Source: Comamonadaceae bacterium (GTDB taxonomy: Bacteria; Pseudomonadota; Gammaproteobacteria; Burkholderiales; Burkholderiaceae_C). Taken from it: DNA of 64,000 nt. The notes beneath the pieces are model-generated. The model worked only from the letters and a program-made list of their open reading frames with translations. It did no database searches and was not told the origin of the DNA. This document shows, in pieces, positions 17,933 through 34,499 of the stretch (position 1 is the first letter of the stretch; each line of letters begins with the position of its first letter). The translations under genes were made by a program, and so were the position numbers. The stretch covers positions 62,001-126,000 of the forward strand of contig CANGNS010000008.1 in assembly GCA_947455465.1 (NCBI GenBank), in the 5' to 3' direction.

Positions 17933-17965
17933 AAGCACTTGGAAGTAATTCCCGGTGCTTTTTTA
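17933..17965 (+). terminator. Intrinsic terminator after tRNA-Val
   Basis: Stem AAGCAC/GTGCTT with an inner stem GGAA/TTCC and loop GTAA is followed directly by TTTTTT, a strong rho-independent signal. It closes the isc-dnaQ-tRNA run and reaches the last codon of the convergent oxidoreductase gene. A second hairpin, CCACCAT/ATGGTGG at 17909-17926, overlaps the tRNA 3' end. Confidence 0.8.
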
Positions 17966-20113
17966 TTGGGCCATGGCCGGTGCTGTTGCCAAGCCATTGG
18001 CCGCGCTGACCTGCACCGGCACGCCACTCAAGACCGCATTGCCCGACAGCGGGTCCCGCAGCCGGTCGTCCAGCAAGGCATTCATATTGACGCCGGGGCG
18101 CAGAGCCGCCTCGCGAAGCTGGCTGCCAGGCAAATCATGCCCCCAGCCGTGGGGCAGGCTGACCACGCCCACTTGCATCTCGTTCGTAATGCGCACCGGG
18201 GCGAGCAGTTCGGTGGCGCCGCTTTGCAGGCGCGCCAGGGCGCCGTCCTGCAGCCCCAGGCGCTGCGCATCCGCGGGGTGCACCAGCAGCGTACAACGTT
18301 CGGGGCCTTTGGCCAGCACGGGCAGGTTGTGCATCCAGCTGTTGCCCGAGCGGGTATCGCGCCGTCCGATGAGCAGCATGCCTTCGCTTTGCGTATGCAG
18401 CGCTGCCTCGACATGCGCTAAATCGGCCAGCAGCGAGGGCGGGGCCAGCGCGATGCGCCCGCTGGGCGTGCGCAGCACTTCAGGAATACGCGGCTGCAAG
18501 GGGCCCAGGTCGATGCCACCCTCGGCCGCACGCACCTGCGCCAGACTCAGGCCATATGGCCCGGCGCGCAAGGCCTGGTCAATGATCGCATCGGGGCTGT
18601 GTTGCGGGCCGGCCAATGGCGCCTGCGCTTTGCCCTGCACGATGTCGCACAGGTGCAGCAAGGTTTGCCATTCCTCGGGCTGATCAGCCGCTTTGGCGAA
18701 TACCGGGCCGCTGTAACGGGCATGGTTGCGGTAAGAGAACTGCGGGAAGGGGATGTCAAAGTGCACATCCTCCAGCGGCGAGGGGCCGGGCAGGATGACG
18801 TCCGCATGGCGGCTGGTTTCGTTGATATAAATATCCAGGCTCAGCATGAAGGGCAGGCCTTCCAGTGCCTTGGCAATGCGCTGGCCGTTGGGCGTGGAGA
18901 GCACCGGGTTGGAGGCAATGCAAATGAGCGCCTTGATTTGTCCAGGTCCCGGCGTATCGATTTCTTCGGCCAGGCAGGTGATAGGGAATTCGCCAAACAC
19001 CTCGGGCGCGCCCGAGACGCGGCTGTGGCGCCGCCCGGTGCTCACGCCGCGCCCTTGGCCGGGCGTGCCCGCGGTGTTGGCAGCAAACGCTGCGGCCTTG
19101 GTGAACATGGCGCCCCCGGCGCGGTCCAGGTTGCCGGTGAGGATGTTGAGCACATCGACCAGCCAGCTGTTGACCGTGCCAAAGCGCTGGGTGCAGGTGC
19201 CGATGCGGCCATACACCGCCGCGCGTTCAGCTTGTGCCAGTTGGCGCGCCAATTGGCGCTGGGTGGCCGCGTCTATGCCGCAGGCCGGCGCCATGCGCTC
19301 GGGCGACATCGGCAGTACGGCGGCGCGTAAGGCGTCCAGGCCTTCGAGGTGCTCTTGCAGTCCGCGTAGGCGCAGCAGGTTTTCGTCAAACAAGGTGTGC
19401 ACCAGGCCGAGCAGGAAAAAAGCGTCGCCGCCGGGGCGGATCGGCAGGTGCTGGTCGGCTGCCGCAGCCGTCTCGGTGCGCCGGGGGTCTACGACCACGA
19501 TGCGTCCGCCGCGTGCGCGCATAGCCTTGGCTTTGCCCCGGTAGTCGGGCACCGTCCACAGGCTGCCGTTGCTGACCATGGGGTTGGCGCCCAGCATGAG
19601 CAAGAAGTCGCAGCGTTCAATGTCGGGCACGGGCACGGACATCCAGTCGCCAAACATGAGGCCGGCGCTGAGCTGCTTGGGGATTTGGTCCAAGGAGGAG
19701 GCCGAGAACACATTGCGCGTGCCCAGGGCCCGCACCAGGTGCGGAAAATAGGCCAAAAGGCCGATTTTGTGCGCCGCCGGGTTGCCGATGACCGTGCCCA
19801 CCGCCTGGCCGCCGTGCTCGGCAATCAGGGGCAGCAGGCGGCGCTCGACTTCGGCAAAGGCCTCTTCCCAGGTGGCCTCCACGAACTGCCCGTCGCGCTT
19901 GATGCGCGGGCTGCGTAGCCGGTCCGGATCCTCGTGCAAGTCTTTGAGCGAGACGCCTTTGGGGCAAATGTAGCCGTGGCTAAATACATCGTGCTCCGCC
20001 CCGCGAATACTGATGACTTTGTCGCCCTGGGTGCGCACTTCCAGGCCGCAGCAGGCCTCGCACAGGGGGCAGATACGGTAGTGGCTTTGCTCGGGACTGG
20101 CAGTAGGCGTCAT
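17963..20113 (-). CDS. Molybdopterin oxidoreductase (DMSO reductase/formate dehydrogenase-like family)
   Basis: A 716-residue Mo/W-bis-MGD enzyme. The N-terminal 4Fe-4S site is C15-x2-C18-x3-C22 (ICPLCEACCGLEV) with a fourth Cys in YICPKG. The molybdopterin domains follow (FLLMLGANPMVSNGS, IVVVDPRRTETA, VFSASSLDQIPKQ), and the C-terminal dinucleotide-binding domain ends with VVSLPHGWGHDLPGSQL. No Tat signal precedes the cluster, so it is probably cytoplasmic. No selenocysteine TGA is evident. It is the last gene of a run with Bug, SDR and TcuAB genes, suggesting a role in degrading the same substrate. The substrate is unknown. Confidence 0.88.
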   Translation of the reverse strand: MTPTASPEQSHYRICPLCEACCGLEVRTQGDKVISIRGAEHDVFSHGYICPKGVSLKDLHEDPDRLRSPRIKRDGQFVEATWEEAFAEVERRLLPLIAEHGGQAVGTVIGNPAAHKIGLLAYFPHLVRALGTRNVFSASSLDQIPKQLSAGLMFGDWMSVPVPDIERCDFLLMLGANPMVSNGSLWTVPDYRGKAKAMRARGGRIVVVDPRRTETAAAADQHLPIRPGGDAFFLLGLVHTLFDENLLRLRGLQEHLEGLDALRAAVLPMSPERMAPACGIDAATQRQLARQLAQAERAAVYGRIGTCTQRFGTVNSWLVDVLNILTGNLDRAGGAMFTKAAAFAANTAGTPGQGRGVSTGRRHSRVSGAPEVFGEFPITCLAEEIDTPGPGQIKALICIASNPVLSTPNGQRIAKALEGLPFMLSLDIYINETSRHADVILPGPSPLEDVHFDIPFPQFSYRNHARYSGPVFAKAADQPEEWQTLLHLCDIVQGKAQAPLAGPQHSPDAIIDQALRAGPYGLSLAQVRAAEGGIDLGPLQPRIPEVLRTPSGRIALAPPSLLADLAHVEAALHTQSEGMLLIGRRDTRSGNSWMHNLPVLAKGPERCTLLVHPADAQRLGLQDGALARLQSGATELLAPVRITNEMQVGVVSLPHGWGHDLPGSQLREAALRPGVNMNALLDDRLRDPLSGNAVLSGVPVQVSAANGLATAPAMAQ

Positions 20114-20134
20114 AGGTGTTGGTGGGCAAAGAGA

Positions 20135-21121
20135 TTAATCTGGCTTGATTTGCGCATTTTTCACGACCTGGCTCCAGATCTTTTGCTCGCGCGCGATATA
20201 GGCCGAGAACTCGGCCGGCGGTCCGCCGCCGATGCCAGCATTGTCGGCAGAAAAACGCTCGCTCACGGCAGGTGATTTGAGCGCTTTGAGGCACTCTTCC
20301 TGAATGCGCTTGACCAGCTCGGGCGGCGTGCCTGCGGGGGCCAGCACGCCGTACCACTGCGAGGTCTCGAAGTCTTTAAAGCCCATTTCGGCCACCGTCG
20401 GCACGTCCGGGAAGGCGCTGATGCGTTGCTGCGTGCCCACGGCAATGGCCCGCAGTTTTCCAGCGCGAATATGGGGCCCCAAGGCCGGCAGCCCTGCCGA
20501 AGAGGCTTGGGTGCGTCCGGCCAGCAAATCGGTCAGCTGCGGCCCGGTGCCCCGGTATGGAATATGGGTTAGCGAAATGCCGGTCACCAATTTCAGGTAT
20601 TCCATGGCCAGATGACCAGCGCTGCCGTTGCCCGCTGAGCCGTAATCCAGGCGTCCTGGATTTTTCTTGGCGTAGGCGATGAATTCCTGGAAATTCCTGG
20701 CTGGCACATCCGGGTGGATGACAAACATATTGGGCACTTTGGCCAACAGCGTGACGGGTACGAAATCCTTGTTCACGTCATAGGGCTGGTTGTTAAGCAT
20801 ATAGGGGTTGACCGCCAGCGTGCCCACGTGGCCCAGGATCAATGTGTGGCCATCGGGTGCAGAGCGCGCCGTCTCTTGCATGGCGATGGTGCCGGCGCCG
20901 CCGGGTTTGTTTTCCACGTACACGTTTTGGCCCAGTTGCTTGGTCAACTCCGCAGCCACCGAGCGGGCAACGATTTCCGAGGTGCCTCCCGGCGCGAAAG
21001 GCACCAAAAAGCGCACGGCGTGCGAGGGCCAAGCCTCGGCCCGGGCAAGCGGTAGTGTGAGGGACAGCGCACTGAGGGCGCCCGCTTGCATCAAATGGCG
21101 GCGGGAAGGATGGGGGTGCAT
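20135..21121 (-). CDS. Bug/TTT-family periplasmic solute-binding protein
   Basis: A 328-residue tripartite-tricarboxylate receptor. The signal region MHPHPSRRHLMQAGALSALS has a twin Arg and a hydrophobic stretch ending ARAEAWP. The mature protein has VRFLVPFAPGGTSEIVARSV, VENKPGGAGTIA, LDYGSAGNGSAGHLAMEYL and HIPYRGTGPQLTDLLAGRTQ, all typical of Bug proteins that bind carboxylated compounds. No tctA/tctB membrane genes are nearby. It stands between the SDR and the molybdoenzyme and probably binds the substrate of this cluster. Confidence 0.92.
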   Translation of the reverse strand: MHPHPSRRHLMQAGALSALSLTLPLARAEAWPSHAVRFLVPFAPGGTSEIVARSVAAELTKQLGQNVYVENKPGGAGTIAMQETARSAPDGHTLILGHVGTLAVNPYMLNNQPYDVNKDFVPVTLLAKVPNMFVIHPDVPARNFQEFIAYAKKNPGRLDYGSAGNGSAGHLAMEYLKLVTGISLTHIPYRGTGPQLTDLLAGRTQASSAGLPALGPHIRAGKLRAIAVGTQQRISAFPDVPTVAEMGFKDFETSQWYGVLAPAGTPPELVKRIQEECLKALKSPAVSERFSADNAGIGGGPPAEFSAYIAREQKIWSQVVKNAQIKPD

Positions 21122-21166
21122 GGGGTATCTCCTCGTTGTGTTTGTAATTACAGGCCTCTTTGGCCT

Positions 21167-21922
21167 TCAGAACTGGTAGCGGCGCAGCCCGCCGTCTACC
21201 GGAATGACTGCGCCGGTGATGTAACTGGCGCGCGGCGATGCCAGAAACACCACCAAATTGGCCAGGTCCTCGGGCTCGCCGTAGCGCCCCACCGGGATTT
21301 CGTTGTCGCACTGCCATTGGCGGTACTCGGGCGTGTAATTGCGAAATATCTGCTCCGAGTGGATGCGCCCCGGCGGGATGCAGTTGACGGTGATGCCGTC
21401 CTTGCCCACCATGCGCGACAAACCTTTGGCCCAGCTGTGCATGCCGGCTTTGGCGCAAAAAGCGCCGTTCACATGGTCGGGCTCGCTTTTGCCGGTGATG
21501 TTGATGATGCGGCCCCAGCGCTGGGCAATCATGCCGTCGATCAGCGCGTCGGCGAGTTGGCGGGGGCGGTGAAAGTTCAGCGTCAAGGCCTCTTCCCATT
21601 GCGCTTCGCTCACATGCAAATCCTTGAAGCTGCGCGAGCCTCCGGCGTTGTTCACCAAAATATCGACCTGGCCGAGACCGCGCACAGCCGCTTGGCTCAG
21701 CGCTTGGGCGGCGTCGGCTGCATACATGTCCTGGGCGATGAGCACCGGCTGTGCGCCGCCAGCGGCCACGATGGCCGCACCGAGCTCCTGCAATTTATCC
21801 AGGCGGCGCGCCGTCAGCGCCAGGCGCACGCCCTCGGCCGCCAAGGCCAAGGCAATACCGCGCCCGATGCCCACCGAGGCGCCGGTAACCAGCGCGGTTT
21901 TGCCTTGCAACTGCATGTCCAT
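21167..21922 (-). CDS. Short-chain dehydrogenase/reductase-fold protein with altered active site
   Basis: A 251-residue SDR. The cofactor motif is TGASVGIG (residues 14-21) and NNAG is at 91-94. The C-terminal part is VIPVDGGLRRYQF. The catalytic region reads NITGKSEPDHVNGAFCAKAG: Lys158 aligns with the YxxxK lysine, but the Tyr position is Ala154 and the Ser position looks like Gly144, with about three residues missing compared with FabG. It may be a non-canonical SDR or use other residues. It sits just upstream of a Bug gene and 24 bases after tcuB. Confidence 0.85.
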   Translation of the reverse strand: MDMQLQGKTALVTGASVGIGRGIALALAAEGVRLALTARRLDKLQELGAAIVAAGGAQPVLIAQDMYAADAAQALSQAAVRGLGQVDILVNNAGGSRSFKDLHVSEAQWEEALTLNFHRPRQLADALIDGMIAQRWGRIINITGKSEPDHVNGAFCAKAGMHSWAKGLSRMVGKDGITVNCIPPGRIHSEQIFRNYTPEYRQWQCDNEIPVGRYGEPEDLANLVVFLASPRASYITGAVIPVDGGLRRYQF

Positions 21923-21946
21923 GAATGTCTCCTTTAGCTCGTATCT

Positions 21947-23134
21947 TTATTCGCCGCCGATACGCAGACGCCGCGGCAAGCGCTGTTCGATGGCAAATTG
22001 CAGCAAGGCCGCAGCCCGGTAAAAACCATGGGCAAACTTGCTGTAGGGCATGGTAACGAAAAAGGCCAGTACGCTGCCCAGATGCAACGCCAGCGTGAGC
22101 GGCAGGGCCGGCGTTTCCCGCAGCGCCAGCAGCGCCAAACCGCTGATGCCGCAAGCGAGCAACAGGGCTATGAAGCCCAGGTCCATGGATTGCTGCGCCG
22201 GGTCGCTAAGCAACGGGTGTTGGCGCCGTCGCAAGACCAGCAAACCTACCGGGCCGGCCACCAGGCCCAGGCCCCCGAGTGTGCCCAGCAACACCGGCAG
22301 ACTCAGCAGTGGGTAGGGCGCATGCCAGCCCAGCCCATAGTGGTAAAGCGTGGCAACGCCGGTGGAGGCCAGGCACAGCGCAAAGCCGTACATGCTGGCT
22401 TGGTGCCATATTTTTCGCCAGGGGCTGGGCTGGTCGTCGCTGGGCGCGCAGCCTTGGCCGTGGCCGCCATCGAGGTAGCGCAAGCGCGCGGTGTCGTCCA
22501 GGGCACGCAGGCGGTCGGCGACGTTAGGGGGCTGGGGCGCACCGGCCTCGTCGCGGGGGCGAACGGCTGTCCAATAGTTGCGCAAGCCCATGGCCAAGGC
22601 CAACACCGAGGCGATAAACACGGGCCCGAAAACACCCACGAGCACCTTGTGCGGAAACAGCGCATAGAAATTGCCCGCTTCCATGGGCTGCCACAAGTTG
22701 CCTTGCAAGGCCAGGCTGGCCAGCAAAAAGCCACTGATGGCTGCGCACAAGGCCAGCGCGACGACCAGTCCGTTGCGCTGGTACAGCTGCGCCAGCGGTG
22801 CCGGCCAGGCATAGGCCTGGTAAGTGCGCACACGCAGCGCGGCCATCGCTCCTGGCACGTTGACCCCAAAGTCATTGGGCGGCGCGTACTGGCAGGCGTG
22901 CAGGCAGGCGCCGCACTGATGGCATAGGTTGGCCAGGTAATGCACATCAGCACGGGCAAATTCCAGGCGCTGGGTCATGGCCGGGAAGACGGCGCAAAAA
23001 CCTTCGCAGTAGCGGCAGGCATTGCAAATTTGCATCACCCGCGCCACCTCGTCCTGGGCAGCCACCAGGCCCGGCGTGCCCGCATCGGCGCGGGCCTGGT
23101 CGATCAAGGTTTGCAGGGGACTTGGCGCGTTCAT
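21947..23134 (-). CDS. tcuB: TcuB-like membrane iron-sulfur protein
   Basis: A 395-residue protein with two cysteine-rich motifs near the N-terminus (CNACRYCEGFCAVFP and CHQCGACLHACQYAPP) and about six hydrophobic segments between residues 125 and 370. This matches TcuB/CitB of the tricarballylate utilisation pathway, which reoxidises the flavin of TcuA and passes electrons to the membrane quinone pool. The gene is one base from tcuA, so the two are surely co-expressed. Confidence 0.9.
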   Translation of the reverse strand: MNAPSPLQTLIDQARADAGTPGLVAAQDEVARVMQICNACRYCEGFCAVFPAMTQRLEFARADVHYLANLCHQCGACLHACQYAPPNDFGVNVPGAMAALRVRTYQAYAWPAPLAQLYQRNGLVVALALCAAISGFLLASLALQGNLWQPMEAGNFYALFPHKVLVGVFGPVFIASVLALAMGLRNYWTAVRPRDEAGAPQPPNVADRLRALDDTARLRYLDGGHGQGCAPSDDQPSPWRKIWHQASMYGFALCLASTGVATLYHYGLGWHAPYPLLSLPVLLGTLGGLGLVAGPVGLLVLRRRQHPLLSDPAQQSMDLGFIALLLACGISGLALLALRETPALPLTLALHLGSVLAFFVTMPYSKFAHGFYRAAALLQFAIEQRLPRRLRIGGE

Positions 23135-23135
23135 A

Positions 23136-24545
23136 TCAGGCGCTCATTTGGGCTGCGCGCGCCGCTTGGGTGCCGGCAATACAGCCAAACACGGTGCCAA
23201 TGGTCATGCCTACGCCTGCGGTATAGCCCTGACCGAGCACATTGCCCGCCATGATTTCGCCGGCGGCAAACAAATTGGGCGCCGGTCGCCCTTGCATGGA
23301 CACCGCCGCCTGCGCATCGACCTGCAAGCCCAGGTAGGTGAAGGTGATGCCCGGGCACAGGCGGTAGCCAAAGTAGGGTGCTGTATCGAGCGGGCGCGCC
23401 CAATGGGTTTTGGCTGGCGTGAGGCCCTCGGTGTGGCAATCGTCCAGCACCGCGTGGTCAAAGGTGCCGATGCGGCAGGCGGCGTTGTAGTCGCTAACGG
23501 TTTGGGCCAGAGCCTGGGGCGAGAGCTTCAGGCGCAGCGCGAGCTCTTCAAGGGAGTCGGCCTGCTCGGGCGCGAACACGGCGGGCATAAAGCGCCCGCG
23601 TGCTTTGGCATCGATGATGGCGTAGCCGATTTGGCCGCGCTGGGCGGCTACCAGCCGCCCCCACACCGCATAGCGCTTGGGCCAGAAGTCTTTGCCCTCG
23701 TCGTCAAAGCGCTGGGCGTCCTGGTTGACCATGATGCCCAGAGATACGCAGTCCACCCGGGTGGCGATGCCGCCGTCATAGAGCGGCGCGCGCGCATCCA
23801 CCGCCACGCAATGGGCTTGGGTGGGATCGCCCACGGTGTCGGCGCCCGCCTCCATCAGGTGGGCCAGCATGGTGCCCATGTTGTAGCGTGTGCCCCGGAT
23901 ACGAAAGTTATCGGCCGTCCACTCGCCCCAGGCGTTTTGCCCCCAGGCTTGGCGTTGCCAGTCGATATTGGACTCAAAACCACCACAGGCCAGCACCACG
24001 CTGGCGCAGGGATGGCGCTGGCTACCTGCATGGACGGCCACCACCCGGCCTTCGCTCCATTCCAGGCGGTCCACCACTTGCTCGTAGCGCACGGTGACGC
24101 CCAGACGCGCTGCGCTGCGGTAGTAAGCGTTGACCAGGGCTTTGCCGCCGCCCATAAAAAAGGCATTGGTGCGCGACAAATGCAAAGTTCCCGAGAGTGA
24201 GGGCTGGAAATGCACGCCGTGGCGTCGCATCCAACTGCGGCACTGGGCCGATGCGCGCACCACCTGGCGCGCCAAAGCTTCGTTGGTTTTGCCAGCCGTC
24301 ACCTGCAACAAGTCTTGCCAGAACTCTTCTTCGGTGTAGGCGCCGGTGAGCACGTCCTCGGGCGCCTCGTGCATGCAGCGGATGTTGCGGGTGTGTACCG
24401 AATTGCCGCCGCGCCAGGCCTCAGGGGCGGATTCCAGCAGCAGCACCCGCGCCCCGGCCTCGGCGGCACACAGGGCCGCGCACAAGGCGGCGTTTCCGCC
24501 GCCCACCACGACCACATCCCAGTGCGGGTTGGGGGGCTCTGCCAT
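23136..24545 (-). CDS. tcuA: FAD-dependent tricarballylate dehydrogenase-like protein TcuA
   Basis: A 469-residue flavoprotein of the fumarate reductase/succinate dehydrogenase flavoprotein type. The dinucleotide site is VVVVGGGNAALCAALCAAEAG with an ESAPEAWRGGNS loop. The C-terminal FAD contacts are LFAAGEIMAGNVLGQGYTAG. TcuA oxidises tricarballylate to cis-aconitate in Salmonella. The pairing with TcuB and two Bug receptors supports oxidation of a polycarboxylic acid, but the true substrate here may be another acid. Confidence 0.88.
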   Translation of the reverse strand: MAEPPNPHWDVVVVGGGNAALCAALCAAEAGARVLLLESAPEAWRGGNSVHTRNIRCMHEAPEDVLTGAYTEEEFWQDLLQVTAGKTNEALARQVVRASAQCRSWMRRHGVHFQPSLSGTLHLSRTNAFFMGGGKALVNAYYRSAARLGVTVRYEQVVDRLEWSEGRVVAVHAGSQRHPCASVVLACGGFESNIDWQRQAWGQNAWGEWTADNFRIRGTRYNMGTMLAHLMEAGADTVGDPTQAHCVAVDARAPLYDGGIATRVDCVSLGIMVNQDAQRFDDEGKDFWPKRYAVWGRLVAAQRGQIGYAIIDAKARGRFMPAVFAPEQADSLEELALRLKLSPQALAQTVSDYNAACRIGTFDHAVLDDCHTEGLTPAKTHWARPLDTAPYFGYRLCPGITFTYLGLQVDAQAAVSMQGRPAPNLFAAGEIMAGNVLGQGYTAGVGMTIGTVFGCIAGTQAARAAQMSA

Positions 24546-24569
24546 GACGCCAAGAAGCAGACTTGGCGT

Positions 24570-25541
24570 TTATTCGGGTTCTATCTTGGCGGCGCGCACC
24601 ACTTTGGCCCAGCGCGGCGCCTCCGCTTTAATGAGCGCAGCAAACTGCTCAGGTGTGCCGCCGCCGATTTCGTTGCCTTGGCTGAGCATTTTTTCGCGCA
24701 GATCGGGGTCTTGCAGGGCTTTGTTACAGGCGGCGTTCAGGGTTTTGATCAAGTCAGCAGACATGCCCTTGGGGCCGACCAAGCCCTGCCAATTGAGCAC
24801 CTCAACGGCGGGGTAGCCTTGCTCAGCCATGGTGGGCAGATCAGGCAGGAGCGGCGAACGGGTTTTGCTGGTGATGGCCAAGGCGCGCAGACGCCCGCCC
24901 TTCACGTTGGGGATCGCTGCGTACATTTGCTCAAACATCATGTGCACTTGCCCGCCCATGAGGTCGGTAGCACCAGCGGCGCCACTCTTATAGGGCACGT
25001 GGATCATGTCCACTTCGGCGGCGAATTCGAGCAAGGCGCCGCTTAAATGGTGGGTGCCGCCAATGCCACCGGAGGCGTAACTCAGTTTGCCAGGGGACGC
25101 TTTGGCTGCAGCCACAATGTCTTTCACCGATTTAAAGGGCGAGTCGGCACGCACCATCAATATCAGCGGGCCGCGTTCGATCAAGGTGATGGGGACAATG
25201 TCGGTAAAGGGGTCGAAATTGAGCTTTTTGAATAAAGCCTGGTTGACTGCCAAGGGGGCAAAATTGCCCATGCCGATGGTATAGCCATCGGGTTTGGCGC
25301 GGGCGATGGCTTCGGTGCCAATGTTGCCGCCGGCGCCGGCTTTGTTGTCGATCAGAATTGGTTGCCCCAAAATTTCGCTCATCACGCGTGACACTTGGCG
25401 CGAGCGTGTGTCGGCGTTGCCACCCGCGGCGTAAGGGCAAATCCAGCTGATAGGGTGGCTCGGGTATTTGTCCTCGGCACGGGCCAAGGCGGGTAGCAAA
25501 GCAGCACTGCCAGCCCATTGAATCAGTTCGCGGCGTTTCAT
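24570..25541 (-). CDS. Bug/TTT-family periplasmic solute-binding protein
   Basis: A 323-residue receptor with the Tat-like start MKRRELIQWAGSAALLPALA and Bug hallmarks (ISWICPYAAGGNADTRSRQV, IDNKAGAGGNIGTEAIARAK, HVPYKSGAAGATDLMGGQVH). It lies immediately upstream of tcuA in the same direction, so it likely binds the acid oxidised by TcuAB. No TctAB permease genes are near; many Bug genes in Burkholderiales are orphans of this kind. Confidence 0.92.
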   Translation of the reverse strand: MKRRELIQWAGSAALLPALARAEDKYPSHPISWICPYAAGGNADTRSRQVSRVMSEILGQPILIDNKAGAGGNIGTEAIARAKPDGYTIGMGNFAPLAVNQALFKKLNFDPFTDIVPITLIERGPLILMVRADSPFKSVKDIVAAAKASPGKLSYASGGIGGTHHLSGALLEFAAEVDMIHVPYKSGAAGATDLMGGQVHMMFEQMYAAIPNVKGGRLRALAITSKTRSPLLPDLPTMAEQGYPAVEVLNWQGLVGPKGMSADLIKTLNAACNKALQDPDLREKMLSQGNEIGGGTPEQFAALIKAEAPRWAKVVRAAKIEPE

Positions 25542-27199: not shown

Positions 27200-28768
27200 T
27201 TAGCGCTGGGGCAGCATGCCCTCTCGCGCCAGTTTCACAGGGAACTGGGCGCGAATCTGGGCGTCCATCTCCGGTGAAATATGCGAGGGGAAGTGGCCAT
27301 CAAGTATGGCTTTGAGCTTTTTGGCCGCTGTATCGACGATGCTGGGGCGGCCGGCCTCGGTCCACTGGTTGGGGCTGGCGCGGTTGGCCACCTGGGGGTA
27401 GAGGTAATCTTTTTGCATCAGCTGCAATGTTTGCGGCGCACCTAAATAGTGCCCCGGACCATTCAGGCAAACGTCGCGGATGGTGTCCAGAGAGAGTGTC
27501 TCGTCGTTGACTTCGATGCCGCGGATGGTGCGTTGCACCGCGCCGATGATGTCGTTGTCTATCAGCAGGCTCTCCAGCGAGAAGCCCAAAAGGCTGGCCA
27601 ACATGCCGGCGGACTCATAAATCAGGTTCGCGCCGGCATTGCCCACCAAGGCGTGGTTGTAGGCTTTTTCGAAGCCGGCTTGGGCGTCGGGCATTTTGGA
27701 GTCGCACATGCCCGAAGCGGTGGCGCCGGTCAGGTCATAAAAGCGCGCCATTTGGGCGCTGGCTGCGGACAGCAGCGCTTGCTCCGGGCTGCCACCGGAC
27801 ATCGCGCCGGTGCGCAAGTCCGACACAAAACACCAGGTGCCAAACATGGCAGGGGCTTTGGGCTTGACGGCATTGACATACACCAGACCGGCCAGGCATT
27901 CAGCCGTTTCTTGCACCAGCGCGGTGGCCAAGGAGGCGGGTGCGGTGGCACCAGCTTGACCGGCTGACAGCAGCAACACCGGCATACCGCCACGCACCGC
28001 CACTTCCAGGCATTTGCAAGCGTCGTAAGCAAACTTCATAGGCGGCACGACAAAGCAGTTGGACTGGCTGACAAAGGGGCGCGCGCGCCACTTGTCTTCG
28101 CCACCGGCGATGATGTGCAGCATCTTGAGTGTCTCTTCCAGATGCTCGGGCGATACCCAGCTTGAGCCCACGTGCTTGGTGGTGCCGCTGACGCTGGCGT
28201 AGGTGGTGTTGAAGTCCATCTCGCGGGGCAAATCCAGGTCGCGGCAGACCACCGAGCGCTGGAAAAAGTGGATGTGCTCCAGCGTGTCCACTACGCGGGC
28301 AATGTTGTACAGGTCTTGGGTGGTGGAGTCGCGGTAGTCGCCGGTATACGGATCCACCATGCTCACGGCTGCGCCAGCGGTGCCGAAATACACCTTGCTA
28401 CCCCAGGGCTCCATGTCGTGCTTCGGGTCCTGCCCGTGCAGCACAAAGTGGCGTGCCGCGTTGGCCACGGTGTCTTCAATCAAGGCGCGGGGGAACAGCA
28501 GGCGCCCGGTGTCTGTGAGTTTGGCACCGGCTTTCGTCATGAGCTCGATACCGCTCTCGGGGGCGTCGGCCAGGCCAATGTTCTCTAGCGCGTCCAAAGC
28601 GGCGTTGTGGATTTTGACCACATCGGCATCGCTGAGCGCTTTGTAGGCGCCGCCATTCATGCCGGGGCGCACGGGGCGCAGGCTGTCGGGCAGGGGCGCA
28701 GAGCGCGCAGCGCGGCGAGCATCACGTGCGCCGCCACGGGGGTTGGTTTTCTCAAGAATTGCGCTCAT
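27200..28768 (-). CDS. Trimethylamine methyltransferase (MttB) family protein, non-pyrrolysine
   Basis: A 522-residue member of the MttB superfamily. The body follows the family pattern from VKIHNAALDALENIGL through SQSNCFVVPPMKFAYDACKC, VLLLSAGQAGATAPA, TGATASGMCDSKMPDAQAG and the C-terminal WTEAGRPSIVDTAAKKLKAI. The frame is open throughout, so it lacks the in-frame UAG that encodes pyrrolysine in archaeal trimethylamine enzymes. Characterised non-pyl relatives demethylate glycine betaine, carnitine or proline betaine, giving methyl groups to a corrinoid protein; no corrinoid protein gene is in this window. The neighbouring FAD/GcvT enzymes support an N-methyl substrate. Confidence 0.9.
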   Translation of the reverse strand: MSAILEKTNPRGGARDARRAARSAPLPDSLRPVRPGMNGGAYKALSDADVVKIHNAALDALENIGLADAPESGIELMTKAGAKLTDTGRLLFPRALIEDTVANAARHFVLHGQDPKHDMEPWGSKVYFGTAGAAVSMVDPYTGDYRDSTTQDLYNIARVVDTLEHIHFFQRSVVCRDLDLPREMDFNTTYASVSGTTKHVGSSWVSPEHLEETLKMLHIIAGGEDKWRARPFVSQSNCFVVPPMKFAYDACKCLEVAVRGGMPVLLLSAGQAGATAPASLATALVQETAECLAGLVYVNAVKPKAPAMFGTWCFVSDLRTGAMSGGSPEQALLSAASAQMARFYDLTGATASGMCDSKMPDAQAGFEKAYNHALVGNAGANLIYESAGMLASLLGFSLESLLIDNDIIGAVQRTIRGIEVNDETLSLDTIRDVCLNGPGHYLGAPQTLQLMQKDYLYPQVANRASPNQWTEAGRPSIVDTAAKKLKAILDGHFPSHISPEMDAQIRAQFPVKLAREGMLPQR

Positions 28769-28839
28769 GGAGTACCTCGGTTAAATGCCAGTAATGGGGT
28801 CTATCAATGCCGTCGTGTGCGTACAAAACCAAGCGCGGT

Positions 28840-31266
28840 TTAGGCGCGCAGTTTTTCGTTTTTCGGGTCGTACAAAGGCTCGGCGTGCACGGTGGCGCTG
28901 CGCATCGTGCCCAGCACATTGACTTGCAATTTAGTACCGGGCGTCGCCTTGTCGGCTTTCACGTAGGCCAAGGCCACGCTCTTCTTTAAGGTGTGGCTCC
29001 AGACGCCCGAGGTGGTCAAGCCCACATTTTTTTCGCCATCAAATACTTGCGCGCAATACGGGCTCTCAGCGTCGCCGTCTTCGTCAAAAATCAGCGGCAC
29101 AAAGCGCTGGGCGGCGCCGAGTGCATGTTCGGCCACCAGCGCGGCTTTGCCGATGAAGTCGGCCTTGTTCACATCCACAAAACGGTCCAGCGATGCCTCT
29201 AAAGGCGTGTAGCCGCTTTCCAGGTCACTCTTCCAGCCACGGTAGCACTTGTCCACGCGCAAGCTGTCCATGGCATACAGGCCAAAGTCGCGGATATCGT
29301 GGGCCGTGCCGGCAGCCCAGATGGCAGCGTACAACGTCGGCAATTGCGCGACCGGCGCATGCAATTCCCAGCCTAATTCGCCTACATAGTTGACGCGCAT
29401 GGCCAGGCAGCGGCCCGCTACGGTTTCGATGTGCTGCGCCGTCAGCCAAGGGAAACCGGCATTCGACAAATCCGCTTTCGTCACCTGACCGAGCACATCG
29501 CGCGCACGCGGACCGGCGATGATCAGGGTGCCGAAATCGGCGGTGACATCGGTCACGCTAATAGGACTGTTATCGGGCAAGCCTTGGCGCAGCAAGTCCA
29601 TATCATGCGTGGCGGCGATGGCCGCGCTGATGATGTAGAAATGGTCCTCACCCAAGCGCGTGATGGTGAACTCGCTCCACAGTTTGCCCGTCGGCGTGAG
29701 CGCATACGCCAGCGACACGCGGCCTTGCGAAGGCAGTTTGGAGCAAGACAAATAATCCAAGTGCTTGGATGCGCCCGGGCCTTTGAGTTCGTATTTGGTA
29801 AAGCCGGGCAAATCTAAGATGCCTACGCGCTCGCGCACGGCTTTCACTTCCTCGGCCACCGCACCGTGCCACACGTTTTCGCGGCGGAAAGAATGCGTGT
29901 CGGCAGGGACGTCGCCCTTCAAATCTAAATAAACCGCACGTTCCCAACCGCCACGCGCGCCAAAGCGGGCACCCTTGGCTTTGAGGGTTTCGTACAGCGG
30001 CGAGGTGCGCAGTGGGCGCCCGGCGGGCCGCTCTTCGTAGGGGAAGGACGAGGCGTATTCGTTTTGGTAGACCTCGATGGCTTTCGCCACGGTGTATTCC
30101 GTAGTGGCGTAGTCGCCGTAGCGCCGACGGTCCAGGGACCACAAGTCCCATTCGGTTTGTCCGTGCACCACCCATTCGGCCAGCGCTTTACCCGCGCCGC
30201 CGCCCTGGGTAATACCAAAGCTGAAGGTGTTGCAATGAAAGAAGTTACGCAAGCCCGGTTCGGGGCCGATATAAGGATTTCCATCGGGCGAATAGGGGAT
30301 AGGACCATTCACGCCGCGTTTGATGCCAGCGCGCGACAGTGCAGGCACGCGGGCCATGGCGTCTTCGATGTATTTTTCCAGGCGCTCGAAATCGTCGTTC
30401 CACAACTGGTTGGCAAAGTCGTCGGGCATGCCGTCTAGCCACATCGGCGTGGCTTTCCATTCGTAGGGCCCGAGGATGAAACCTTCGCGCTCTTGGCGCA
30501 GGTAATACGAAGTGTCCGGATCGCGCAACAGCGGCAGTCGCGCGTCGCCGCGTGAAGTGAGCTCGGGCACGTCTTCCGTCACCAAATACTGGTGCGACAT
30601 GACGGCGATGGGCAAATGGCGCCCGACCATGGCCATCACTTCCCCGGCGCGAAAGCCTGCGGCGTTGACGATGATTTCGGCGGTGATTTCGCCTTTGTCT
30701 GTGGTGACCAACCATTCGCCATTGGGCTTTTGCGCCAGCGCCGTGACGCGGGTGTGGCGGCGGATGGTGCCGCCCAACAAGCGTGCTTCGCGCGCCAAGG
30801 CTTGCGTCAATTGCGAGGGGTCGATGTCGCCATCGAGCGGGTCCCACAGCGCGCCTTGCAAGTCGTGGGTTTCAATCAGCGGGTAGCGGTTTTTCAGGTC
30901 CGAGGGCGAGAGAATTTCGTATTCCAGGCCATTGGCCTTGGCCATGCTTTTGACATGGTGGAACTCGTCCATGCGATTGCGCCCATGGGCCAAGCGCACC
31001 GAACCGGTCAAGTGGTAATTAATGGGGTTTTCGGCCGACGCGGCCAGCTTGCGGTACAGCGCTGCGGAATACTTTTGCAGCTTCAGAATGCTCCAGCTAC
31101 TGGAAAACGTGGGCAGATTGCCCGCCGCGTGCCAGGTGGAGCCCGAGGTGAGTTCGTCGCGCTCCAGCAGCAAAGCGTCTTTCACACCTAAAGCGGCCAG
31201 GTGGTAGAGGCAACTGCAACCCACGACCCCACCGCCAATCACGACGACACGTGCATGTTCTGTCAT
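28840..31266 (-). CDS. Dimethylglycine/sarcosine dehydrogenase-like FAD-GcvT fusion protein (copy 1)
   Basis: An 808-residue two-domain protein. Residues 5-~400 are a DAO-type FAD oxidoreductase (VVVIGGGVVGCSCLYHLAAL; STWHAAG, where the His is the covalent flavin site in dimethylglycine dehydrogenase). From about 430 the protein is an aminomethyltransferase (GcvT/T-protein) fold that captures the one-carbon unit on tetrahydrofolate (YVGELGWELHAPV, DSLRVDKCYRGWKSDL). Such enzymes oxidatively remove N-methyl groups. The start MTEHARVVV (31266) is preferred to the longer track start, which reads through the promoter region. It lies 71 bases before the MttB-like gene on the same strand. Confidence 0.9.
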   Translation of the reverse strand: MTEHARVVVIGGGVVGCSCLYHLAALGVKDALLLERDELTSGSTWHAAGNLPTFSSSWSILKLQKYSAALYRKLAASAENPINYHLTGSVRLAHGRNRMDEFHHVKSMAKANGLEYEILSPSDLKNRYPLIETHDLQGALWDPLDGDIDPSQLTQALAREARLLGGTIRRHTRVTALAQKPNGEWLVTTDKGEITAEIIVNAAGFRAGEVMAMVGRHLPIAVMSHQYLVTEDVPELTSRGDARLPLLRDPDTSYYLRQEREGFILGPYEWKATPMWLDGMPDDFANQLWNDDFERLEKYIEDAMARVPALSRAGIKRGVNGPIPYSPDGNPYIGPEPGLRNFFHCNTFSFGITQGGGAGKALAEWVVHGQTEWDLWSLDRRRYGDYATTEYTVAKAIEVYQNEYASSFPYEERPAGRPLRTSPLYETLKAKGARFGARGGWERAVYLDLKGDVPADTHSFRRENVWHGAVAEEVKAVRERVGILDLPGFTKYELKGPGASKHLDYLSCSKLPSQGRVSLAYALTPTGKLWSEFTITRLGEDHFYIISAAIAATHDMDLLRQGLPDNSPISVTDVTADFGTLIIAGPRARDVLGQVTKADLSNAGFPWLTAQHIETVAGRCLAMRVNYVGELGWELHAPVAQLPTLYAAIWAAGTAHDIRDFGLYAMDSLRVDKCYRGWKSDLESGYTPLEASLDRFVDVNKADFIGKAALVAEHALGAAQRFVPLIFDEDGDAESPYCAQVFDGEKNVGLTTSGVWSHTLKKSVALAYVKADKATPGTKLQVNVLGTMRSATVHAEPLYDPKNEKLRA

Positions 31267-31369
31267 GTTTTGAAACTCCGTAGACTGTTTCACACCAAGG
31301 CCAAGGGTATAAATGTCTCCTAGCCACGAATTTTTTTGGATTGTAGGCATAAAAATTAAAAAAACAGCC

Positions 31370-31409
31370 GATTTTTTTACACTAAAATAATTTTCGAAGA
31401 TTTTTTTAC
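31370..31409. promoter_or_regulatory. Direct repeats in the divergent promoter of the two dehydrogenase genes
   Basis: The 11-mer GATTTTTTTAC occurs exactly twice, at 31370-31380 and 31399-31409 (29 bases apart, about three helical turns). A related T7 tract, GAATTTTTTTGGA, is at 31328-31340. They lie in a 155-base AT-rich gap between divergent genes and end 12 bases before the plus-strand ATG. The downstream XRE-cupin protein is a plausible binder, or the tracts may simply bend DNA. Confidence 0.45.
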
Positions 31410-31421
31410 TTTGGGGGTCGT

Positions 31422-33866
31422 ATGGATCTACCTCATCAGGCCAGCGTGGTCATTGTGGGCGGTGGCATCGTCGGATGCAGCTTGGCGTATCACCTTACTT
31501 TGCGTGGGTGTACCGACGTGGTCTTGCTTGAACGCAAGCAACTGACCTGCGGCACCACCTGGCACGCCGCCGGCCTGGTGGGCCAGCTGCGGGCCACCTA
31601 CAACCTGACCCGCCTGGCGCAGTACACCACCAACCTGTACGCTTCTTTGGAGCAGGAAACCGGCCAGGCGACCGGCTTTCGCCAAACCGGCTCGATTGCC
31701 ATTGCCACCAACCTGGCCCGCCTGGAGGAACTTAAACGCGGCGCGTCCATGGCTAAGTGTTTTGGGCTCGAAGTGCAGACCTTGGGCGCCTCTGACATTG
31801 CCAGCATGTGGCCGGGCGTCAATGTGTCCGATGTCGTGGGTGGCGTGTTTTTGCCCAAAGACGGACGCACCAACCCCATCGACACCACACAAGCGCTGGC
31901 CAAGGGCGCGAAAAGCCGGGGTGCGCGCATTTTTGAAAATTGCGCGGCCGAGGAAATCCTTATTGAAAACGGCAAAGCCGTGGGCGTGCGCACCGAGTTC
32001 GGCACCATTCGCGCCGACATGGTGGTCAACTGCGCCGGTATGTGGGCGCATGAACTGGGCGCCAAAGCCGGCACCACGGTGCCGCTACACGCTGCCGAAC
32101 ACTTCTACATCGTCACCGAGCCCATGGAAGGCTTGCACTCCAATTTGCCGGTGCTGCGCGACCCGGACGGCTGCGCCTACTTCAAAGAAGACGCGGGCAA
32201 GCTTTTGGTCGGCTGGTTTGAGCCGGTGGCCAAACCCTGGGGCATGAAGGGCATCCCCGAGACCTTTAGCTTTGAATCCTTGCCCGACGACTTGGAGCAC
32301 ATCGAGCCGCTGCTGGCAGCTGCCATGCACCGCACCCCGGCGCTGGAAAAAACCGGCATCAATTTGTTCTTCAACGGCCCGGAAAGCTTTACCCCCGACG
32401 ACCGCTATTTGCTGGGCGAAACGCCCGAGGTGCGCAATTTGTTTGTGGCCGCTGGCTTTAACTCCATCGGCATCCAGTCCGCCGGTGGCGCAGGCAAGGT
32501 GCTGGCCGACTGGATGCTGGACGGCCATCCGCCCATGGACTTGTGGGACGTGGACATCCGCCGCGTCATGCCTTTCCAGCGCAACCGCCGCTATTTGCGC
32601 GACCGCACCGTCGAGTCGCTGGGTTTGCTCTACGCCATGCACTGGCCCTTCCGCCAGCCCGAGACGGCGCGTGGCGTACGCCGCTCTATCTTGCACGACC
32701 GCCTGGCCGCGCACGGCGCGTGTTTTGGCGAGGTGGCCGGCTGGGAGCGCCCCAACTGGTACGCGCCCGCCGGTGTCAAGGCCGAATACGCCTACAGCTA
32801 CGGCCGCCAAAACTGGTTTGAGTATTCGGCCGCCGAGCACCAGGCCGTGCGCAATGCCGTGGGCATTTTTGACCAATCGTCTTTTGCCAAATCCCTGGTG
32901 CAAGGGCCGGACGCAGAGGCGGTGCTCAACCACATCAGCGCCAACAATATGTCGGTGCCGGTGGGTAAAGTGGTTTACACGCAGTGGCTCAATGAGCGCG
33001 GCGGTATTGAGGCCGACCTGACGGTCACCCGCGAAGCGCAGGACCGCTACCTGGTAGTGACTGCAGCGGCCACACAGACGCATGATTTCTCCTGGCTGGA
33101 GCGCAATATTCCGGCCGGCGCACGCGTCACGGCGGTAGATGTGTCCTCCAGCATGGCCGTGCTGGGCGTGATGGGCCCGCGCGCGCGCGACTTGCTGGCC
33201 CAATTGACCGAGGCCGATTTGTCTAACGAGGCCTTCCCCTTCGCCACCTCACAGGTTATCGACCTGGCGTACGCCCGCGTGCGCGCCAGCCGTATTACCT
33301 ATGTGGGCGAGCTGGGCTGGGAGTTGTACATCCCCACTGAATGCGCGCCTGGCGTGTTCGACGCGCTGATGGCGGCGGCCCCTTCTGTGGGCGGACGACT
33401 GGCGGGCTACCACGCGCTGAACTCCTTGCGCATGGAAAAGTCGTACCGGCACTGGGGCCACGACATCAGCGACGAAGACACGCCGCTGCAATCGGGCCTG
33501 GGCTTTGCCGTTGCCATGAACAAGCCCAGTGGCTTTATCGGCCAGGCCGCATTGCAAGCGCAAAAAGCCGCCGGCCTCACGCGCCGCCTGGTGCAATTTG
33601 CGCTGGACGACCCACAGCCTTTGCTCTACCACAACGAACCAATTTGGCGTGATGGCGCCATCGTCGGACGCATCAGCTCGGGCATGTTTGGACACTTTGT
33701 GGGCAAGTCGCTGGGCATGGGTTATGTGCAATGCCAAACCCAGGGCGAGGCGCCCGAGGCCATCTTGCAAGGCCACTACGAGATTGAAGTGGCGGGTGTC
33801 AAATTCAGTGCCCAGCCCTCGTTGGCGCCGTGGTACGACCCGAAGTCGGCGCGCGTCAAGGTGTGA
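31422..33866 (+). CDS. Dimethylglycine/sarcosine dehydrogenase-like FAD-GcvT fusion protein (copy 2)
   Basis: An 814-residue paralogue of the divergent copy with the same layout. The FAD site is VVIVGGGIVGCSLAYHLTL, the flavin-linking-type His is in CGTTWHAAGLVGQLRA, the substrate-domain end is GFNSIGIQSAGGAGKVLADW, and the C-terminal GcvT domain contains YVGELGWELYIPTE and NSLRMEKSYRHWGHDI. It predicts oxidative N-demethylation with one-carbon transfer to tetrahydrofolate. The two copies differ clearly around the flavin loop (LRATYNL here, SSSWSIL in copy 1), so they probably act on different substrates or steps. The regulator gene starts three bases after the stop. Confidence 0.9.
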   Translation: MDLPHQASVVIVGGGIVGCSLAYHLTLRGCTDVVLLERKQLTCGTTWHAAGLVGQLRATYNLTRLAQYTTNLYASLEQETGQATGFRQTGSIAIATNLARLEELKRGASMAKCFGLEVQTLGASDIASMWPGVNVSDVVGGVFLPKDGRTNPIDTTQALAKGAKSRGARIFENCAAEEILIENGKAVGVRTEFGTIRADMVVNCAGMWAHELGAKAGTTVPLHAAEHFYIVTEPMEGLHSNLPVLRDPDGCAYFKEDAGKLLVGWFEPVAKPWGMKGIPETFSFESLPDDLEHIEPLLAAAMHRTPALEKTGINLFFNGPESFTPDDRYLLGETPEVRNLFVAAGFNSIGIQSAGGAGKVLADWMLDGHPPMDLWDVDIRRVMPFQRNRRYLRDRTVESLGLLYAMHWPFRQPETARGVRRSILHDRLAAHGACFGEVAGWERPNWYAPAGVKAEYAYSYGRQNWFEYSAAEHQAVRNAVGIFDQSSFAKSLVQGPDAEAVLNHISANNMSVPVGKVVYTQWLNERGGIEADLTVTREAQDRYLVVTAAATQTHDFSWLERNIPAGARVTAVDVSSSMAVLGVMGPRARDLLAQLTEADLSNEAFPFATSQVIDLAYARVRASRITYVGELGWELYIPTECAPGVFDALMAAAPSVGGRLAGYHALNSLRMEKSYRHWGHDISDEDTPLQSGLGFAVAMNKPSGFIGQAALQAQKAAGLTRRLVQFALDDPQPLLYHNEPIWRDGAIVGRISSGMFGHFVGKSLGMGYVQCQTQGEAPEAILQGHYEIEVAGVKFSAQPSLAPWYDPKSARVKV

Positions 33867-33869
33867 GGC

Positions 33870-34499
33870 ATGGCCATCCAAGCTGCGCGACTGGCTGCTC
33901 CTGAAGACGGTGAAGACGCCCTGGCCGTCTTAGCCGACCTGGACCCAGGTGCGGCCATTGGCGAGCAGTTGCGCGAACTGCGCCTGGTCAAAAACCTGAC
34001 CCTGCGCGAAGTGGCTGAAAAAGCCGGTATCTCGGTAGGCTACCTTAGCCAGCTAGAGCGCAACCATTCGCGCCTGCCGATTGCGGTGCTCAAGCGCATC
34101 AGCGATGCGCTGGGCGTGCACATGAACTGGTTCTTCCAGCAAAACGCCGAGGGCGACCCGGCCGAGCGCGATGTGGTGGTGCGCAGCACCCACCGCCGGC
34201 GCATGTCCTTTACCGGCTTGGGCATTCAAGAGGAACTGCTCTCGCCTAACCTCAGCGGCCCGCTGGAAATGCTGCTCAGCACCATCGAGCCAGGCTCGGA
34301 TAGCGAAGACTATTTTCACGACGGCGCAGAGGCGGGCTACGTGCTGTCCGGCACTTTAGATTTGTGGGTCTCAGGCCGTCATTTCCGTCTGCAGGAGGGC
34401 GACAGCTTTTCCTTCAAAAGCACCGATGTGCACCGTTGCGCCAACCCGGGCGATATGCCGGTGCGGGTGATCTGGGTGATTACCCCGCCGCATTACTGA
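33870..34499 (+). CDS. XRE-family regulator with C-terminal cupin domain
   Basis: A 209-residue regulator. The helix-turn-helix spans residues about 35-85 (LRLVKNLTLREVAEKAGISV, then GYLSQLERN). The C-terminal cupin is around 140-205 (YVLSGTLDLWVSGRHFRLQE, VHRCANPGDMPVRVIWV), a small-molecule sensing fold. This two-domain type (PuuR/SutR-like) often represses neighbouring catabolic genes until the substrate binds. Its position three bases behind copy 2 of the dehydrogenase makes it the likely local regulator of this locus. Confidence 0.9.
   Translation: MAIQAARLAAPEDGEDALAVLADLDPGAAIGEQLRELRLVKNLTLREVAEKAGISVGYLSQLERNHSRLPIAVLKRISDALGVHMNWFFQQNAEGDPAERDVVVRSTHRRRMSFTGLGIQEELLSPNLSGPLEMLLSTIEPGSDSEDYFHDGAEAGYVLSGTLDLWVSGRHFRLQEGDSFSFKSTDVHRCANPGDMPVRVIWVITPPHY

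Follow-up and report, generated by a model that had tools for sequence, protein, structure and literature searches.

A four-gene block in the 64,000-nucleotide stretch of a Comamonadaceae genome analysed here (GenBank assembly GCA_947455465.1, contig CANGNS010000008.1; hereafter the window) appears, judged from sequence, reasonably likely to be a substrate-specific module for the catabolism of a quaternary (trimethyl-type) amine that plugs into a distant corrinoid hub. In the proposed route the MttB homologue of the block (window MttB) would take off the first methyl group and hand it to MtgC, a Co(I) corrinoid protein encoded on contig C23, MtgD would pass it from MtgC to tetrahydrofolate (THF) and MetF2 would oxidise the methyl-THF, with RamA and DUF1638 re-reducing inactivated cobalt. 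The second and third methyls would presumably follow by oxidative removal through two flavoenzymes, FGa and FGb, whose GcvT domains would deliver the one-carbon units to THF, and an XRE-cupin protein would regulate both operons of the block in response to substrate or product. The initial annotation had suggested a stepwise route of this kind and it is still the best reading, as the genes stay associated in different phyla and C23 encodes a distant corrinoid partner; the methyl transfer and the order of the steps are the predicted parts. That MttB, FGa and FGb act sequentially on one compound we consider likely.

Layout and conservation of the block

The MttB homologue, the two FAD-GcvT enzymes and the XRE-cupin protein that were initially annotated are all present at positions 27200-34499 of the window, arranged as two divergent operons. 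On the minus strand FGa (FAD-GcvT copy 1, a dehydrogenase of the dimethylglycine dehydrogenase (DMGDH) type; 28840..31263, 807 aa from its probable start) is followed by window MttB (27200..28768, 522 aa). On the plus strand FGb (FAD-GcvT copy 2, a second, divergent DMGDH-type dehydrogenase; 31422..33866, 814 aa) is followed after three bases by the XRE-cupin regulator gene (33870..34499, 209 aa, HTH_3 and Cupin_2 domains). The 158 bp between the operons (31264..31421) are a candidate promoter/operator region. No corrinoid protein or corrinoid activator is encoded within the block, as had been noted. The open reading frame of FGa reaches upstream to 31350, its listed start, which is probably too long; ATG 31263 is probably the true start because a GGAG Shine-Dalgarno sequence is conserved there in relatives and homology begins at this ATG. 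In the gap between FGa and MttB the coding strand of the operon carries a G+C-rich hairpin followed by T-rich sequence (28833-28849), which could reflect partial termination or chance. A separate minus-strand cluster at 17963-25541 of the window encodes a tricarballylate-dehydrogenase-like FAD protein with an Fe-S/membrane partner, TctC-type receptors, an SDR and a molybdopterin oxidoreductase.

Gene order and strand were kept in 15/15 related loci with the complete set of four genes and an MttB at least 75% identical, other relatives being cut by contig ends. Purifying selection was seen in each of the four genes (dN/dS 0.03-0.23), and together these results argue that the block is not a chance arrangement. 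Near-identical loci came from Comamonadaceae MAGs, and one of the contigs from relatives in the same genus was deposited as Rhodoferax sp. D15.bin.32. From this we infer that the host (assembly of 3.06 Mb in 34 contigs) is a freshwater, Rhodoferax-like betaproteobacterium. Homologues are carried by Rhodoferax lacus, Sinorhizobium meliloti and Ahrensia sp. R2A130.

The enzyme genes are also conserved together beyond the genus, in Gammaproteobacteria, Rhizobiales and Actinomycetota. FGa, FGb and MttB were found together in a gammaproteobacterial MAG (L071), in Ahrensia and other Rhizobiales (L106, L107, L110), in Actinomycetota (L077, L078, L092) and on pSymB of Sinorhizobium meliloti (L137), where FGb does not read through in a single frame. 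FGa adjoins MttB in Beta- and Gammaproteobacteria (Granulosicoccaceae among them), Rhodospirillales and SAR324. Not every lineage has the two-step oxidative tail, since most sampled Rhodobacteraceae carry a window-type MttB with neither FGa nor FGb alongside and since FGb is missing from Granulosicoccaceae, Rhodospirillales and SAR324 loci that have FGa. These solitary MttBs and missing FGb genes are what would be expected if MttB and the flavoenzymes acted on different compounds and were only co-regulated, with FGa and FGb demethylating di- and monomethylated amines from elsewhere. However, the adjacency of MttB and FGa in Beta- and Gammaproteobacteria, Rhodospirillales and SAR324 and the intact trio in Rhizobiales and Actinomycetota speak against such a division of labour, which we regard as improbable.

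FGa and FGb are DMGDH-type flavoenzymes of full length in which one half is a folate-binding GcvT unit. Each contains DAO, FAO_M, GCV_T and GCV_T_C domains, and the two are 35% identical to each other. FGa matched mammalian DMGDH with E values of 1e-173 to 1e-175 and FGb matched mitochondrial DMGDH with an E value of 1.6e-157; the histidine of the WHAAG motif aligned with that of DMGDH in both. The genome encodes four FAO_M-containing proteins. A third enzyme of the FGa/FGb type, on contig C16, is 38% identical to FGa and 32% to FGb.

The XRE-cupin protein is PuuR-like, yet scored under the PuuR cut-off (70 versus 211 bits). It has stayed part of the block in each of the 15 Rhodoferax-type loci with the four genes and is a plausible candidate for the substrate sensor of the block. 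Across 19 relatives the intergenic region has kept its position and part of its sequence. Within it Rhodoferax lacus (L066) has one perfect 10-bp dyad, whose counterpart in the window is weak and A/T-rich, so the dyad was not taken as an operator. A sigma-70 scan gave no match.

The window MttB and its probable corrinoid hub

Window MttB is a member of the MttB superfamily (COG5598/PF06253), scoring 370 bits against PF06253 where the gathering score is 25. Identity with the pyrrolysine enzyme was ruled out, as the reading frame has no internal stop; Met354 occupies the pyrrolysine position, and the score against the pyrrolysine MttB equivalog TIGR02369 was 384.5 bits against a cut-off of 525. 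An AlphaFold model based on an alignment built from the relatives' loci had a mean pLDDT of 78 and a pTM of 0.83, with low confidence at residues 387-402 and 442-471. Its top ten PDB matches were all MttB-family chains (E 1e-27 to 1e-32), the closest folds being MttB 7xcn and MtgB 2qne/9yce. The genome has four MttB genes, spread over four contigs. In a tree of 85 sequences, obtained by a quick search without bootstrap and using reference sequences from printed PDB alignments, the window-type MttBs formed one separate clade (n=61, SH-aLRT 99; support for clade separation 99-100), and D. hafniense MtgB (DhMtgB) grouped with the three other MttBs of the genome, apart from this clade. The tree was made without MtpB, MtcB and MtyB of Eubacterium limosum and MtgB1/MtgB2 of Ruegeria pomeroyi. 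In the literature we found neither experiments on the window clade nor any report on its S. meliloti homologue.

A search for MttC-like proteins and corrinoid:THF methyltransferases located the distant corrinoid partner that the initial annotation had envisaged. The Mtg hub (L017:10598-19871, contig C23) encodes MtgC, DUF1638, a PF13769 protein, MetF2 (MTHFR-type), MtgD (Pterin_bind), RamA (RACo), a GMC oxidoreductase and MtgE (homocysteine methyltransferase). MtgC (L017:10598-11350, 250 aa) is a stand-alone protein with B12-binding and B12-binding_2 domains and the motif GDIHDIGKN (pattern DxHxxG), and the RACo activator is the only one in the genome. In Ruegeria pomeroyi the MtgC/DUF1638/MetF2/MtgD/RamA/MtgE set serves aerobic glycine-betaine demethylation and methionine synthesis; genetics is available for MtgC and MtgD, and use of glycine betaine needs MtgC (PMC12478193). 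Pterin_bind matched only two open frames of the window genome (327 and 489 aa), and the MetH-type pterin domain of classical MetH, an enzyme usually missing where the aerobic MtgBCD system occurs, was not found in this 96.6% complete assembly. Because the split hub is complete and no MetH-type pterin domain was detected elsewhere in the genome, the window betaproteobacterium probably makes methionine in the Roseobacter way. The marine MtgCDE hub is also seen here in freshwater Comamonadaceae.

Use of this hub by window MttB was assessed from co-occurrence, counted raw with kinship ignored, and from gene adjacency. Among 398 sampled Pseudomonadota genomes an MttB-family gene was present in 54 and MtgC in 55; all 54 were among the 55, leaving one MtgC genome that lacked MttB. 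Window-type MttBs, defined in this sample by 55% identity or more, occurred in 38 genomes and MtgC was present in 38/38. Within the genus (37 genomes) MttB and RACo were found together in 17, with agreement in 35/37 and mismatch in 2/37, and MttB and MtgC agreed in 34/37. Of 24 window-type genomes reached through their loci, three gave no orthologous MtgC, namely two small assemblies (G453, G454) and G474, whose sole MtgC match was a MetH-sized protein. As MtgB-type paralogues are also present in most window-type genomes, MtgC co-occurrence alone is no proof of use by the window type. Adjacency is more specific evidence. In two SAR324-type loci (L101, L102) the gene immediately upstream of window-type MttB and FGa is that of RamA, MtgC and/or DUF1638 lie a few kilobases from window-type MttB in Hyphomicrobiales (L086, L093-L095, L097-L100, L103), and MtgD and RamA are near it in a further locus (L088). 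Taken together, these gene associations make it very likely that window MttB uses MtgC.

The initial annotation had also considered that window MttB needs no corrinoid. It might then be a lyase, or a methyltransferase acting directly from amine to folate or from amine to homocysteine. Such an activity would fit a block that lacks a corrinoid protein, and in some Rhizobiales (L106, L107, L110) a homologue of homocysteine S-methyltransferase is encoded close to MttB. This proposal was not borne out: MtgC accompanied MttB in 54/54 genomes, which makes corrinoid-free action unlikely and a shared distant hub the best reading, RamA stands immediately upstream of MttB in the SAR324-type loci, and the best fold match was an MttB-MttC complex entry. 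We consider corrinoid-free action very improbable.

Possible substrate of the proposed module

Neighbouring genes point to a quaternary amine in general as the substrate. A ProV/ProW-like ABC importer lies beside window-type MttB in one of the SAR324-type loci (L102), a choline-type binding protein scoring above its cut-off lies beside a homologue in L124, and on a Mesorhizobium plasmid the homologue (45%) has ABC genes annotated for glycine betaine as neighbours. The best match of a neighbour in L085 was GbdR, below the cut-off, and formaldehyde-oxidising genes, above the cut-off, were neighbours in L075.

The most familiar candidate would be glycine betaine itself, with the block acting as an ordinary second pathway in which window MttB yields dimethylglycine, FGa sarcosine and FGb glycine. 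The DMGDH-like FGa, the GbdR-like regulator, the betaine and choline importers beside homologues and the requirement for MtgC on glycine betaine in R. pomeroyi (PMC12478193) are all consistent with this. The MttB itself is not, as the window clade stands apart from the DhMtgB clade and differs at the residues proposed, from docking, for glycine-betaine binding in DhMtgB (Y94, N199, R309 and H345; PMC6855144). The equivalents in window MttB are G132, F239, A349 and E385, and none of the four proposed residues was kept in 61/61 window-clade sequences. In contrast, the N, R and H of this set were kept in 22/22 MtgB-type rows, and the three other paralogues of the genome keep three or four of the residues, all four being present in MttB28 and MttB2. 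Glu385 was found in 59/61 window-clade sequences in place of the carboxylate-contacting His345, a replacement that would suit a substrate without a free carboxylate at its far end there. The genome also has a better candidate set for glycine betaine on contig C16 (L016:2141-10883), where MttB16 occurs with a DMGDH-type FAD-GcvT enzyme and sarcosine oxidase genes, and this is probably its own glycine-betaine-to-glycine set. Glycine betaine is less likely as the substrate because the four proposed residues are missing and because of the C16 set. We therefore regard the second glycine-betaine pathway as unlikely; judging by the residues and genes, there is a good chance that the substrate is not glycine betaine, and it is probably another quaternary amine.

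Several other contexts were recorded. On contig C2 MttB2 is followed directly by an OYE-type flavoenzyme whose best family, mycofactocin OYE, was matched below its cut-off (L015:8678-12369). PfkB-type sugar kinases lie beside MttB16-type genes in several genomes of Hyphomicrobiales and related bacteria (L098, L103), as does a pseudouridine-5'-phosphate glycosidase-like protein recognised by eye. On a Leisingera caerulea plasmid (L140) a 42%-identical MttB is flanked by a Rieske oxygenase on one side and a mandelate-racemase-family gene on the other, a setting reminiscent of the catabolism of proline betaine or hydroxyproline betaine. On the megaplasmid of Ruegeria pomeroyi DSS-3 an apparent operon (L136:9929-19249) combines a distant window-type MttB (46%) with two FAD-GcvT enzymes, a class III aminotransferase and a TPP enzyme that resembles sulfoacetaldehyde acetyltransferase. 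This TPP enzyme and a taurine-type binding protein in L111 hinted at a sulfonated betaine, which was not adopted as both proteins scored below their family cut-offs. Methylisocitrate-lyase-like and homocysteine S-methyltransferase genes recur near Rhizobiales and Rhodobacterales copies, and no clear chemistry followed from them.

Relation to described systems

The closest described system is the aerobic MtgBCD(E) pathway of R. pomeroyi DSS-3 (PMC12478193). MtgC, MtgD, RamA, DUF1638, MetF2 and MtgE are all present in the window genome, no MetH-type pterin domain was found, and MttB genes may sit far from the hub, as there. Unlike that system, window MttB falls outside the MtgB clade, lacks the proposed glycine-betaine residues and has two DMGDH-type enzymes and an XRE-cupin regulator as its partners in the block, in a freshwater betaproteobacterium. 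In Eubacterium limosum it is biochemically established that MtpB, MtcB and MtyB share MtqC/MtqA/RamQ, encoded in a separate cluster (PMC8604678). That arrangement is alike in having several MttBs with different substrates, one separate hub and MttBs beside their own regulator, and unlike in belonging to an anaerobic acetogen for which no FAD-GcvT oxidation of the remaining N-methyls is described (PMC8604678). The pyrrolysine trimethylamine methyltransferase MttB of Methanosarcina (structures 7xcl and 7xcn) has the same fold, and its Gly110 and Tyr364, which flank pyrrolysine, correspond to Gly132 and Tyr384 of window MttB (PMC9842639); in window MttB, which is 31% identical, Pyl334 is replaced by Met354. 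Dimethylglycine dehydrogenase (4pab, 5l46) and dimethylglycine oxidase (1pj5) share full-length similarity, the WHAAG motif and the GcvT folate domain with FGa and FGb, whereas the window has two diverged copies tied to an MttB.

The initial annotation had called the block a candidate new system. The label 'new system' is too strong because a corrinoid hub shared by several MttBs has been described in E. limosum (PMC8604678) and proposed for marine aerobes (PMC12478193). The mechanism is of a known kind, and the new part is the window MttB clade and its substrate.

Corrinoid-dependent demethylation in aerobes was shown recently, in the literature found for glycine betaine only, and bacteria with the aerobic Mtg hub carry up to seven MttB-domain genes, for which diverse compounds feeding the same hub were suggested (PMC12478193). 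The block adds an MttB clade that is phylogenetically distinct and has conserved partners. As the window type is present in 38/398 Pseudomonadota genomes, its substrate is probably common in the environment. More tentatively, and at somewhat less than even odds, the window clade may represent widespread, unrecognised corrinoid-dependent methyltransferases for a quaternary amine that no characterised member demethylates, which with FGa and FGb would form an aerobic module for complete N-demethylation spread over Beta-, Alpha- and Gammaproteobacteria, SAR324 and Actinomycetota.
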